NCBI GenBank assembly: GCA_001897535.1
Contig: MKTC01000043.1
Coordinates: 1-33,662 of the forward strand
Direction: 5' to 3'
Length of the DNA stretch: 33,662 bases
DNA from: Bacteroidetes bacterium 37-13
Lineage (GTDB): Bacteria > Bacteroidota > Bacteroidia > Chitinophagales > LD1
Part shown: positions 18,733 to 24,320 of the stretch, in pieces
How positions within the stretch are numbered: position 1 is the first letter of the stretch
Layout: the number at the start of each line of letters is the position of its first letter
Translations under genes and position numbers: made by a program
The notes under the pieces: generated by a model
The model's input: only the letters and a program-made list of their open reading frames with translations
Told to the model about the DNA's origin: nothing
Databases searched by the model: none

Positions 18733-20043
18733 ATGACCTCCCAAAACGCACAAAACGAAACCGCAAATTCAAGTAATTGGCATAAGGAAATTATGCAAAA
18801 TTTGACTTTACTTCCACAGAGTTTACTTGAAAGTAAAGAGCTAAAGCAATTTCTATCGCAACTTGATAAGAAGTTACGCAACACTGAAAGCGATAAAGAT
18901 CTTGCGGAACATTCGCTGCGAATTGTAGAGATTGAAAAAAGAGAATTAGAAAGAAAAATAGCTGCAACCAATGAGAAATTCGATTTGGCATCGCAAGCAT
19001 CGCAAGCCGGAATTTGGGAATGGATGGGAACCACAGGTCAAATTTCGTGGGACGACCAAATGTTTAGAATTTACGGCATTGAAAACAAAGATTTATACTC
19101 CGATTTAAGTAAATCATTTTTCGACTTTGTGATACCGGAAGATAAAGCAAATCTGCGCAATAGCTTTTCTTCAATTAGCATAGTTTCTAATATTTTTAAT
19201 ACAGAATTTAGAATTTGCCGCGAAAGTGATCAAGCAATACGAAATCTTGAACTTACTGCTTTAATAAGGTTTGATTTGCGCTCAACACCCGTGAGAATGG
19301 TTGGTGTTTGTGTTGATGTTACAGAGAAAAAAATTACAGAAGCCGAGCGTTTGCAGTTCGTAAACAATTTGATAAACTACAACAAGGATTTGGAAGATTT
19401 TGCTTTTGTGGTTTCGCATCGCTTGCGCTCACATACTTCAAAATTTCAAACTGCTATTTCGGTGCTTACCAATGTGGCTTCTATCGAAAAATTGCGTGAT
19501 ATAATTATTGAGGAAGTAAACAAAGAAGCTAAAATGATGGACGAAACTTTGCGCGATTTAGCAAAGGTATTAAGTCTAAGAAGTGAGAACCATATTTTTG
19601 AAAGCATTCCGCTGAAGAGCTTTGTAAAAACAGTAGTAGATTCTTTTACCAGCACAGATTGCGAATTTCTATTGAAGATAAACAAAGACCTGAATATTTT
19701 AGGCATTTGCAATTACCTTTCCAGTATTTTTAATGAACTAATTCAAAATGCTATAAAGTTTCAACGAGAAAGTGAGAAGTTGATTATTTCTATTATCGCG
19801 AAAGAAAATGCAAACGAGATAGAAATAATTTTTAGCGACAATGGAATTGGAATAGATATGGAGAAAAATGAAGCAAAGCTGTTTGGACTATATCGAAAAT
19901 TCAATTTGAATATTGAAGGAAAAGGAATAGGTTTACACATCGTGAAGAAACAAATGGATATTATGAACGGAAAAGTGCGCATTCAAAGCGAACCCCAAGT
20001 TGGCACCACAATTAGTCTATTATTCCCAAAGTATAAAACATAA
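18733..20043 (+). CDS. PAS-domain sensor histidine kinase, cytoplasmic
   Basis: A 436-residue kinase with no membrane segment. Residues 35-85 are coiled coil; about 86-200 a PAS domain (AGIWEWMGTTGQISWDDQMFRIYGI), closing with VGVCVDVTEKK. About 208-275 is a Bacteroidota-style dimerisation domain with the H-box FAFVVSHRLRSHTSKF, predicted phospho-accepting His229. About 320-434 is the ATPase domain with N-box FNELIQNAIKF, G1 FSDNGIGID, F-box LYRKFN and G2 GKGIGLHIVKKQMDIM. It would autophosphorylate on a signal sensed by PAS, possibly a small ligand or redox state. A single-domain response regulator starts 5 bp downstream, so the two form a pair. Confidence 0.92.
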   Translation: MTSQNAQNETANSSNWHKEIMQNLTLLPQSLLESKELKQFLSQLDKKLRNTESDKDLAEHSLRIVEIEKRELERKIAATNEKFDLASQASQAGIWEWMGTTGQISWDDQMFRIYGIENKDLYSDLSKSFFDFVIPEDKANLRNSFSSISIVSNIFNTEFRICRESDQAIRNLELTALIRFDLRSTPVRMVGVCVDVTEKKITEAERLQFVNNLINYNKDLEDFAFVVSHRLRSHTSKFQTAISVLTNVASIEKLRDIIIEEVNKEAKMMDETLRDLAKVLSLRSENHIFESIPLKSFVKTVVDSFTSTDCEFLLKINKDLNILGICNYLSSIFNELIQNAIKFQRESEKLIISIIAKENANEIEIIFSDNGIGIDMEKNEAKLFGLYRKFNLNIEGKGIGLHIVKKQMDIMNGKVRIQSEPQVGTTISLLFPKYKT

Positions 20044-20048
20044 ACAAA

Positions 20049-20486
20049 ATGGAAAACAACACCCAAAAAGATTACCACATTCTTCTAGTTGATGACGACC
20101 GCGCATTCAATTTTCTAAACGAAAAAATTATTGAGTTTGAAAAATTTGCATCTAAAATTTCAAGCCAAGTAAGCCCTGTTGAAGCATTGGATTTTCTAAA
20201 ATCAACGATTGATACAGAACCAGAAACTTTCCCCGATTTTATTTTTTTAGACATCAATATGCCGGAAATGGACGGCTGGGAGTTTTTAGATGAATTCTGC
20301 AATTTGCCACACGGCTATATTTCTAAAACGCGAATTTTTATTCTCACGTCTTCGCTTAATCCATTGGATATTGAAAAAAGTAAAACCTATAACAATGTAA
20401 AAGGCTTTGCTTCTAAACCGCTTACTACAGAAGTTTTAAACTTTATCCGCAGCGAAAAAACAAATCAATTTATTGTGCTTACTTAA
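20049..20486 (+). CDS. Single-domain response regulator (receiver only)
   Basis: A 145-residue receiver domain with no output domain. The acidic pocket is in LLVDDDRAF (Asp15-17), the phospho-acceptor is Asp68 in FIFLDINMPEMDGWEF, the Thr/Ser switch is in FILTSS (about 97-102) and the conserved Lys is Lys123 in FASKPLT. Located 5 bp after the histidine kinase gene, it is that kinase's probable partner. CheY-like receivers without output act by protein contact or in a phosphorelay; this subgroup is common in Bacteroidota and targets are usually unknown. Its stop is 2 bp from the convergent epimerase gene. Confidence 0.92.
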   Translation: MENNTQKDYHILLVDDDRAFNFLNEKIIEFEKFASKISSQVSPVEALDFLKSTIDTEPETFPDFIFLDINMPEMDGWEFLDEFCNLPHGYISKTRIFILTSSLNPLDIEKSKTYNNVKGFASKPLTTEVLNFIRSEKTNQFIVLT

Positions 20487-22112: not shown

Positions 22113-22805
22113 ATGCGTATTTTAGTTGTTGGAGAAGAAGAAAGAAGAAATACCTTACGTGAAAAATTCGCGAAGCAATGCCCACAAATAGAAGTAGAAA
22201 TAAGCGATGGCGATGCCGAAGAAGATTTTGATGAATACGATGCCATTTTCGATTTGAATTTTGATGACGATAGCGAAAATTTTCAGCAGTATGCAGCACT
22301 TCGCGAGAAACCAATTTTTGTAAGCGCTTTAAAACAACAGTTGGCAGAAGCCGTTTATTTAGGTGATGTAAAAATCCGCTGCCGCTTGTTTGGCATCAAT
22401 GCGTTACCCGTTTTTTTAGAAAATGATATTTGGGAAATCAGCACTTTTAGAAAATTTGAAACGCCAGAATTAGAAAAGCTCATGCAACTGTTTAACCAAA
22501 AATGGTTGCCGGTAGAAGACCGCGTTGGCTTAGTAAAAGCACGTGTAATTTTTATGATTATCAACGAAGCGTGCTACACTTTGCAAGAAGGCACAGCGAG
22601 TATCGAAGATATTGATTTAGCGATGAAACAAGGAACAGGCTATCCTTTCGGGCCATTTGAATGGTGCGATAAAATCGGCATCACCAATGTGTTTGAAACT
22701 TTAGCGGCTTTGTATGATGACACTAAAGACGAGCGCTACAAAATTTGCCCGCTGTTGAAGACTAAATATCTGCGCAACGAAACTTTTTACCGCGCAGCAA
22801 AATAA
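22113..22805 (+). CDS. 3-hydroxyacyl-CoA dehydrogenase-like protein, probably catalytically inactive
   Basis: A 230-residue protein. Residues 140-230 clearly match the C-terminal 3HCDH domain (IDLAMKQGTGYPFGPFEWCDKIG). The N-terminal half resembles a Rossmann fold but lacks GxGxxG (it reads VVGEEERRN) and carries a strongly acidic stretch at about 30-56. By hand alignment to human HAD, the catalytic His (in HFFNPVP) corresponds to Phe here (FGINALP), the Asn in PGFIVNRLL to Ala, while the Glu partner (WEIST) remains. So NAD binding and catalysis look lost. Only 12 bp separate it from nnr, suggesting one transcript. It may be a regulatory or structural paralogue. Confidence 0.75.
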   Translation: MRILVVGEEERRNTLREKFAKQCPQIEVEISDGDAEEDFDEYDAIFDLNFDDDSENFQQYAALREKPIFVSALKQQLAEAVYLGDVKIRCRLFGINALPVFLENDIWEISTFRKFETPELEKLMQLFNQKWLPVEDRVGLVKARVIFMIINEACYTLQEGTASIEDIDLAMKQGTGYPFGPFEWCDKIGITNVFETLAALYDDTKDERYKICPLLKTKYLRNETFYRAAK

Positions 22806-22817
22806 ATTTTACAGACA

Positions 22818-24320
22818 ATGAAAATATTGTCGGCAACACAAATAAAAGAAGCAGATGCGTTTACGATTGCAAACGAACCAATCGCTTCCATTGATTTAAT
22901 GGAGCGCGCAGCTTCAGCTTTCACCGATAAATTTTTAGAACTGTTTGATGTTTACGATAAACCAATCACTATAATTTGTGGTATAGGAAACAACGGTGGC
23001 GATGGCTTGGCAATAGCGCGATTACTGCATTTTTTACGTGCAAAACCTTCGGTGTTTATTATTGGCGATAAACTAAAAGCAACAGAAGATTTCAATAAAA
23101 ATTACGAGCGACTGGAGGCAACTCAAGTTCCTATGTTTTTGGGAAATGAAAAACTGCAACTTGACATAAACAAAAGTGAAATTGTAATTGATGCGCTTTT
23201 CGGAATAGGGCTTTCGCGCAAGCTTGAAAATGTTTACAAAGAAGTGGTTGAATGTATCAATCAATCCGGCAAAACGGTTGTGAGTGTTGATATGCCATCG
23301 GGATTATTTTGCGATGTTTTAAACAAAGAAAACGATACTTTAATTTGTGCTGCACACACTATTACTTTTCAGCAACCTAAGTTGAGTTTTTTATTTCCCG
23401 AAAACGAAATGTTTTGTGGCAATGTTCACACTGTAAATATTGGGTTGAACAAGCGATTTTATAGTGAAACAAACAGCGATTATTTTATTTCTGAGAAAGC
23501 AGAATTTTTAAGTGCAAAAGTGTTTCACCGCAACCGGTTTTCGCACAAAGGAACTTTTGGGCATTTGCTTTTAGTGGCAGGCAGCAAAGGCAAAGCAGGA
23601 GCTGCTGTTTTGAGCGCAAAATCTGCATTGCGCAGTGGTGTTGGTTTACTCTCAATACTTTCTGCTGCGGCAAATATTCCGGTGTTGCAAACTGTTGTAA
23701 ACGAAGCGATGTGTTTGGAAGATGAAGCGCAAAATTTCATTACAAAAATAGAAGCAGAATTTCCCGATGCCTTTGCGATTGGACCCGGAATTGACACAAA
23801 TGAAAATACAGCAGATGCGCTTTTACTTTTTCTAAAACAAAACGAAAAACCATTAGTGTTAGATGCAGATGCGCTAAACATTTTAGCGCAGCAAAAGGAG
23901 TTTAAAAATTTGTTTCCAAAAGAATGTGTAATTACTCCGCACCCAAAAGAATTTGATAGACTTACAGGAAAGAGCAATAACAGTTTTGAGCGCCTGCAAA
24001 AAGCGCGAGCTTTTTCAAAAGAACATAAAGTTGTGGTGGTGCTGAAAGGCGCACACACTGCGGTGGTTGAGCCAAGCGGAAATGTTTATTTCAACTCTAC
24101 CGGAAATGCAGGAATGGCAACTGCCGGAAGCGGTGATGTGCTAACCGGAATAGTTGGTAGCTTTTTAGCACAAGGTTTATCTGCTTTAGAAGCTGCGCGT
24201 TTAGCAGTTTTTTTACATGGCTTAGCCGGTGATTTTGCAGCTAAGGAAAAAACAGAAATGGCTTTAATAGCAGGCGATATTATTGAATTTCTGCCGCAGG
24301 CAATAAAAGAAATGTCCTAA
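22818..24320 (+). CDS. nnr: Bifunctional NAD(P)H-hydrate epimerase / ADP-dependent dehydratase
   Basis: A 500-residue two-domain metabolite-repair enzyme. Residues 1-215 are the YjeF_N epimerase (MKILSATQIKEADAFTIANEP, CGIGNNGGDGLAIARLL, VIDALFGIGLSR, VSVDMPSGLFCD), which interconverts the R and S forms of hydrated NAD(P)H. Residues 225-500 are the ribokinase-like dehydratase (HKGTFGHLLLVAGSKGKAGA, AIGPGID, VITPHPKEFDRLTG, and the catalytic GMATAGSGDVLTGIVGSFLAQG), which restores NAD(P)H using ADP. Both halves look intact. It is 12 bp downstream of the degenerate dehydrogenase-like gene. MITE copy A lies about 100 bp after its stop. Confidence 0.95.
   Translation: MKILSATQIKEADAFTIANEPIASIDLMERAASAFTDKFLELFDVYDKPITIICGIGNNGGDGLAIARLLHFLRAKPSVFIIGDKLKATEDFNKNYERLEATQVPMFLGNEKLQLDINKSEIVIDALFGIGLSRKLENVYKEVVECINQSGKTVVSVDMPSGLFCDVLNKENDTLICAAHTITFQQPKLSFLFPENEMFCGNVHTVNIGLNKRFYSETNSDYFISEKAEFLSAKVFHRNRFSHKGTFGHLLLVAGSKGKAGAAVLSAKSALRSGVGLLSILSAAANIPVLQTVVNEAMCLEDEAQNFITKIEAEFPDAFAIGPGIDTNENTADALLLFLKQNEKPLVLDADALNILAQQKEFKNLFPKECVITPHPKEFDRLTGKSNNSFERLQKARAFSKEHKVVVVLKGAHTAVVEPSGNVYFNSTGNAGMATAGSGDVLTGIVGSFLAQGLSALEAARLAVFLHGLAGDFAAKEKTEMALIAGDIIEFLPQAIKEMS

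Follow-up and report, generated by a model that had tools for sequence, protein, structure and literature searches.

A conserved putative pseudoenzyme of Bacteroidota, probably the second half of a PaaH-type 3-hydroxyacyl-CoA dehydrogenase encoded by two separate genes

In dehydrogenases of the 3HCDH fold, a second dimerization domain can be supplied either by a second chain or by the same chain. Domain E of MFE1 is reported to correspond to the dimerization domain that the second chain contributes in HAD, and the tunnel in these enzymes owes its shape to both DH2-DH3 loops (PMC10988713, PMC5715344); the former paper also names Glu170 and Asn208 of HAD. E. coli PaaH (PRK08268; PDB entry 3mog) carries its second 3HCDH domain after a reduced Rossmann segment, an arrangement for which Pfam has a family, 3HCDH_RFF (PF18321), describing a shortened Rossmann fold before 3HCDH domain 2. 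Many other Bacteroidota have shortened, fused PaaH proteins of 377–417 aa, two of them seen in paa operons, with the same catalytic half and a homologous domain 2. A search of the literature, mostly without subscription papers, returned no description of a split PaaH or of the free-standing short form considered here (PMC13186573, PMC5715344 and PMC10988713, each in its accessible part); the part of PMC13186573 that was available names PaaH three times, and the words fusion, split, Bacteroid and Chitinophag do not appear in it.

The window, by which we mean the whole stretch of 33,662 nucleotides analysed (contig MKTC01000043.1 of Bacteroidetes bacterium 37-13), carries such a short form at 22113–22805 on the forward strand. 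The open reading frame is intact, starts with ATG and encodes 230 aa; from the frame itself, its Pfam match, its relatives and its position in trees, it can be described as a putative 3HCDH-fold pseudoenzyme, PaaH-C-like, and a free-standing homologue of the second half of PaaH. The sole Pfam match over cut-off is the 3HCDH C-terminal domain (residues 139–221, 71.5 bits against a cut-off of 22.1), which bears out the clear domain seen in the first-pass annotation; together with conservation, it places the dimerization-type 3HCDH domain at residues 136–221 (22518–22775, forward strand). The same domain (PF00725) is matched by all 23 short-form members at E ≤ 1. PF18321, on the other hand, is matched by none of the 23 at the same threshold, while E. 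coli PaaH, as a positive control, matches it at 7.2e-12 and has two 3HCDH stretches besides. Membership of that family is thus ruled out, and what precedes the 3HCDH domain seems to be a Rossmann remnant reduced in another way. Compared with E. coli PaaH, then, the window protein is encoded by a separate gene, has a longer N-terminal segment and lacks the PF18321 match, and it differs from the fused Bacteroidota proteins in that those are single chains whose two domains are joined just by a short linker, with the Rossmann remnant missing.

Could such a gene simply be decaying? The window protein finds a match at E ≤ 5.4e-41 in 35 of 40 related genomes. Among the 80 named orthologues (loci L031–L110), which are the best 80 of 586 relatives and so lean towards near relatives, the frame is open in every one and begins with a start codon where the alignment places it. 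These 80 open frames and the strongly conserved C-terminal domain rule out a pseudogene, and the earlier impression of a protein well conserved in texture was correct.

The catalytic apparatus appears to be gone throughout the family. In an alignment of 81 orthologues that includes the window protein, no row carries GxGxxG within its N-terminal 20 residues. All rows but one of the 81 have Gly at position 7, and positions 9 and 12 are never Gly, so that only the first glycine of the motif reported absent is retained. The catalytic sites are named here by the residue numbers of HAD, His158 among them. The place of the lost histidine is, by alignment, at residues 92–97 (LFGINA; 22386–22403, forward strand). 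The window protein has no histidine over its full length, and none of the 81 rows has one at residues 92–96; residue 93 is F in 49, I in 19, Y in eight, V in three, and L and A in one each. (A histidine does occur somewhere in residues 88–112 in 15 of the 81 rows, at varying places, mostly residue 91.) The annotation had the catalytic His aligned with Phe. The loss holds, but the equivalence with Phe depends on the alignment, because in the HMMER alignment to Clostridium 3-hydroxybutyryl-CoA dehydrogenase (HBD) the HFF of GMHFFNP falls in a three-residue deletion. Its replacement of the active-site Asn by Ala was right for the window protein, where by alignment the Asn208 position, before a conserved Arg, is Ala143 (22539–22541, forward strand); across the alignment this position is Pro in 78 rows, Ala in two, of which the window protein is one, and Thr in one. 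E108 is invariant (81/81), although it lies three residues out of register with the catalytic Glu170 of human HAD unless compensating indels are allowed. Being common to 81 aligned orthologues, the catalytic losses are family-wide and do not reflect local damage. That the protein is a conserved pseudoenzyme, an inactive relative of the dehydrogenase fold, is well supported, as far as sequence can indicate inactivity. The acidic run DGDAEEDFDEYD, said to replace part of the N-terminal domain, is present in the window protein but absent from the distant orthologues L026–L030, and is thus no universal trait.

Structure prediction gives a confident model of the whole protein (pLDDT 92.3, pTM 0.84). 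Residues 1–135 (22113–22517, forward strand) form a degenerate, shortened Rossmann-like domain, as judged from the model, the VIA match to HBD and conservation, with the alternation of strands and helices predicted at high confidence. In VIA the protein matches HBD/HAD chains over its full length (residues 1–230), the best being 9jhz_B (Z 19.2, 222 residues, 2.5 Å); 3mog_A follows with Z 14.7, aligned over the first half of 3mog. Conservation is distributed very unevenly. In the 81-row alignment, the mean share of the commonest residue is 0.54 for residues 1–135 and 0.86 for residues 136–220, and columns that are at least 95% identical number 47/85 in the C-terminal domain and 12/135 in the N-terminal part. 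One stretch, GTGYPFGPFEW at residues 174–184 (22632–22664, forward strand), reaches 0.95 and is nearly invariant. In the model it bridges the turn between helices 164–175 and 181–188, and from the predicted order of helices it is the DH2-DH3 loop, which joins the second and third helix of the domain; its proposed role is assigned by analogy with MFE1/HAD, with model and conservation as the other grounds.

Four residues are invariant in the alignment (N96, E108, R137 and R144), and D47 (78/81), D51 (75/81) and K74 are nearly so. The protein might be an enzyme whose degenerate cleft catalyses some other reaction, with an enamine or imine that RidA deals with as one conceivable substrate. N96 and E108, which are polar, invariant and N-terminal, would suit such an activity, as would the confident Rossmann-like prediction and a conserved ridA neighbour (see below). 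However, the protein is without dinucleotide motif, catalytic His or catalytic Asn, and an N-terminal conservation of 0.54 against 0.86 is below what an active site would lead one to expect, which makes this reading improbable.

The gene lies 12 bp ahead of nnr, as had been reported. The latter (22818–24320, forward strand; YjeF_N and Carb_kinase domains) encodes an NAD(P)H-hydrate epimerase/dehydratase, and a spacing of 12 bp suggests co-transcription in the window's genome. In the annotation the protein is placed with NADH-hydrate repair and could bind a damaged cofactor, NAD(P)H, or acyl-CoA, serving as a sensor or scaffold, a role in which it would act with Nnr. Among the relatives, however, nnr is found beside the short form at one of 30 loci (tblastn, 1.5 kb flanks), which is the window itself, and at none of the 80 named loci (best 80 of 586 relatives; tblastn, flanks of at most 6 kb, some contigs stopping within the flanks). 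The congener G002 has a different downstream gene on the opposite strand, an alpha/beta hydrolase by eye. These findings rule out the nnr linkage and leave nnr outside the conserved unit: the reading goes back to a single local arrangement, the adjacency seems to be a local coincidence, and a partnership with Nnr is largely refuted by synteny and very improbable. The sensor for damaged NAD loses its main basis, since it is ridA that is conserved next to the gene and the signal for a partner comes from a PaaH-type dehydrogenase; the acyl-CoA scaffold survives in an altered form. Elsewhere in the window, a 436-aa sensor-kinase-like protein (by eye) adjoins a response regulator (PF00072) at 18733–20486.

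The neighbour that recurs is ridA, placed head-to-head upstream at 78 of the 80 named loci (best 80 of 586 relatives), the other two ending at a contig edge. Measured between tblastn match ends, the distance is 36–70 bp at 68 of these 78 loci and about 700 bp at three. Divergent ridA was found as well in 27/30 related-genome loci, 8/8 short forms and 18/26 class-level loci, samples that partly overlap, with some genomes common to several, and in none of 21 distant forms from other classes. The window's genome and its congener G002 have lost the pairing and have ridA-like genes elsewhere; a second congener, G001, retains the pair. In one sublineage (L036–L054), a DUF7033 protein and a GNAT (Acetyltransf_6) protein are often encoded downstream of the short form.

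A pairing as strict as this could mean that the protein is an independent acyl-CoA- or nucleotide-binding protein, presumably a sensor, working as a homodimer or with RidA, so that its kinship to PaaH domain 2 would be mere history; the invariant and near-invariant N-terminal residues, together with R137 and R144, could form a pocket. Against this, ridA adjacency is absent from 8/26 class-level loci and from all 21 of the other-class forms, and the complementarity with PaaH architecture and the dehydrogenase genes adjacent in three genomes, both described below, would have to be coincidences. We regard the independent sensor as unlikely.

Where did the protein come from? By E-value, the best NCBIfam match is PRK08268, over residues 336–501 of 507, that is, in the second half (98 bits against a cut-off of 508); the PaaH equivalog TIGR02279 likewise matches in its second half only, at 83.8 bits against 669.4, short of a full PaaH. 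Among PDB chains, E. coli 3mog comes first in sequence similarity, again with its best stretch in the second half. In an IQ-TREE analysis of 3HCDH domains, the window protein falls inside a PaaH domain-2 clade (UFBoot 99) that comprises 26 short forms, E. coli PaaH domain 2, 15 distinct fused domains 2 and 11 forms from other classes. HBD, PaaH domain 1, fused domain 1 and the standalone dehydrogenases occupy the opposite side (UFBoot 95), and FastTree supports the same two groups at 0.86 (domain 2) and 0.96. The trees are built on domains of 73–101 aa from chosen representatives, with the fused protein of G205 and the standalone one of G371 entered twice in IQ-TREE. The evolutionary identity as a relative of PaaH domain 2 is strong. 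The standalone dehydrogenases form a clade (UFBoot 100), sister to fused domain 1, so that independent events may be few.

Two sets of unusual relatives were encountered. Longer forms of 270–335 aa from other classes of the phylum (L122–L124, L126, L131, L132) group with PaaH domain 2; in a simple sequence-pattern search they are without HFFNP and NR motifs, and several retain an HBD-like GxGF/Y..Y tail. In two genomes of one genus, the short form lies in frame with a following apparent signal segment and a protein that is amylase-like by eye, within a single frame of 1000–1200 aa (L240, 27–3647, reverse strand; L241, 1592–4618, forward strand).

The window's genome encodes a separate 283-aa dehydrogenase of the PaaH domain-1 lineage with intact motifs (contig C16, 96290–97138), on a different contig from the short form. 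In a search of 296 genomes of the class, short-form matches were chosen in 61 at E ≤ 5.5e-36 and in nine with divergent forms. The catalytic half found matches in 268 of the 296, with frames listed for part of them; 150 listed genomes were tabulated by hand, leaving out 8 of the 70 short-form genomes, for which no frame was listed. Where the short form is present, the dehydrogenase frame is 282–333 aa (about 285 aa) in 61 of 62 listed genomes; where it is absent, the frame is 378–474 aa in 87 of 88, these lengths being those of open reading frames and not of genes, and apparent absence may conceal divergent forms, such as the one that G468 and G515, outside the table, each have within a long frame. 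The association among the 150 listed genomes has a Fisher p of 6e-40, in a test that ignores kinship. The two exceptions are G205, with both a short form and a fused PaaH, and G371, with a standalone dehydrogenase and no short form found. All 15 long frames that were read encode fused PaaH, with domain 2 after a short linker. As for the genomes with a short form outside the table, a follow-up search found a standalone dehydrogenase of the same clade in G529 and in six genomes of family f98; in G476, which is 95% complete, no standalone dehydrogenase was found, only pieces of HBD.

Within families, both halves switch state together. In f106, one genome (G486) has a 386-aa frame and no short form, and six others have the short form and frames of 282–296 aa; in f67, G552 has a 419-aa frame and no short form, and G335, G397 and G479 have the short form. 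In three of the seven genomes of genus g190, the halves are neighbouring genes on the same strand: the gaps are 24 and 25 bp in G461 and G478, and for G495 the arrangement is read from match coordinates. The remaining four genomes have them apart. Could the partner be HBD, the 298-aa 3-hydroxybutyryl-CoA dehydrogenase? HBD is present in the window's genome and its chains are the best fold matches, but domain 2 is fused to the PaaH-type unit and not to HBD, and we consider such a partnership quite improbable.

Two of the long frames that were read (L248, L249) lie in clear paa operons, and in three of four genomes the fused gene is near paaA/paaC by coordinates (G401, G388 and G552; not G450). 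The window's genome has homologues of PaaA and PaaC; homologues of paaA, paaB and paaC are seen together on contig C6 (L236, 8082–10288). PaaZ, at E ≤ 1e-60, was not found in nine of ten short-form genomes tested, including that of the window, which disfavours the phenylacetate pathway as the setting there; phenylacetate is therefore probably not the substrate in that genome. G072 does have PaaZ, and its best PaaH-type frame is a standalone one.

The reading we favour, with a probability of roughly 0.6, is that a PaaH-type 3-hydroxyacyl-CoA dehydrogenase is here split into two proteins and that the window protein, its second half, stands alone as the pseudo-dimer partner of the active half. 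It is preferred because of the predicted fold, the catalytic loss, the clade, the co-distribution, the fusion and the adjacency, and the concentration of conservation in the C-terminal domain, GTGYPFGPFEW loop included, is counted in its favour. The physical pairing, the effect on activity and the substrate are matters that we infer. In E. coli PaaH and the shortened fused PaaH of many Bacteroidota, a single chain runs from the active unit, made of the NAD domain and 3HCDH domain 1, to another 3HCDH domain. The window's lineage has a separate protein of about 283 aa as its active unit, and domain 2 would be the window protein, with its degenerate Rossmann remnant in front. This protein would pack on the active subunit like domain E of MFE1 or the second chain of dimeric HAD, taking the place of a second active subunit, and the conserved GTxYPxGPxEW loop would line the acyl-CoA (pantetheine) tunnel of its partner on one side. 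The proposed job would thus be like that of domain E of MFE1/FadB or of the second HAD chain, namely a second dimerization domain, to judge by analogy (PMC10988713), but performed in trans, without catalytic residues and with an N-terminal domain of its own.

Several observations count against the split-PaaH reading: the halves are side by side in three genomes only, G205, G371 and G476 break the pattern, full HBD chains surpass 3mog by fold (Z 19.2 and 14.7, as above), and the ridA pairing is left unaccounted for. To these come the location of the two genes on different contigs in the window's genome, the 23 members without a PF18321 match, the lack of a PaaZ match in that genome, and the single clade of the standalone dehydrogenases behind an association that ignores kinship. 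One could imagine a dedicated regulatory pseudo-dehydrogenase subunit, encoded head-to-head with ridA, in which a remodelled pocket for a ligand in the degenerate N-terminal domain would tune the asymmetric heterodimer to some reactive metabolite shared with RidA, a tentative idea and a rather unlikely one.

What might be taken for the gene of a truncated dehydrogenase is thus better read as encoding a conserved, putatively non-catalytic subunit in many Bacteroidota. Its strict pairing with ridA may point to a possible link between CoA metabolism and the clearance of reactive intermediates, and the fused, adjacent and separated forms would allow one to test how an enzyme of the beta-oxidation type became a pair of active and inactive subunits.
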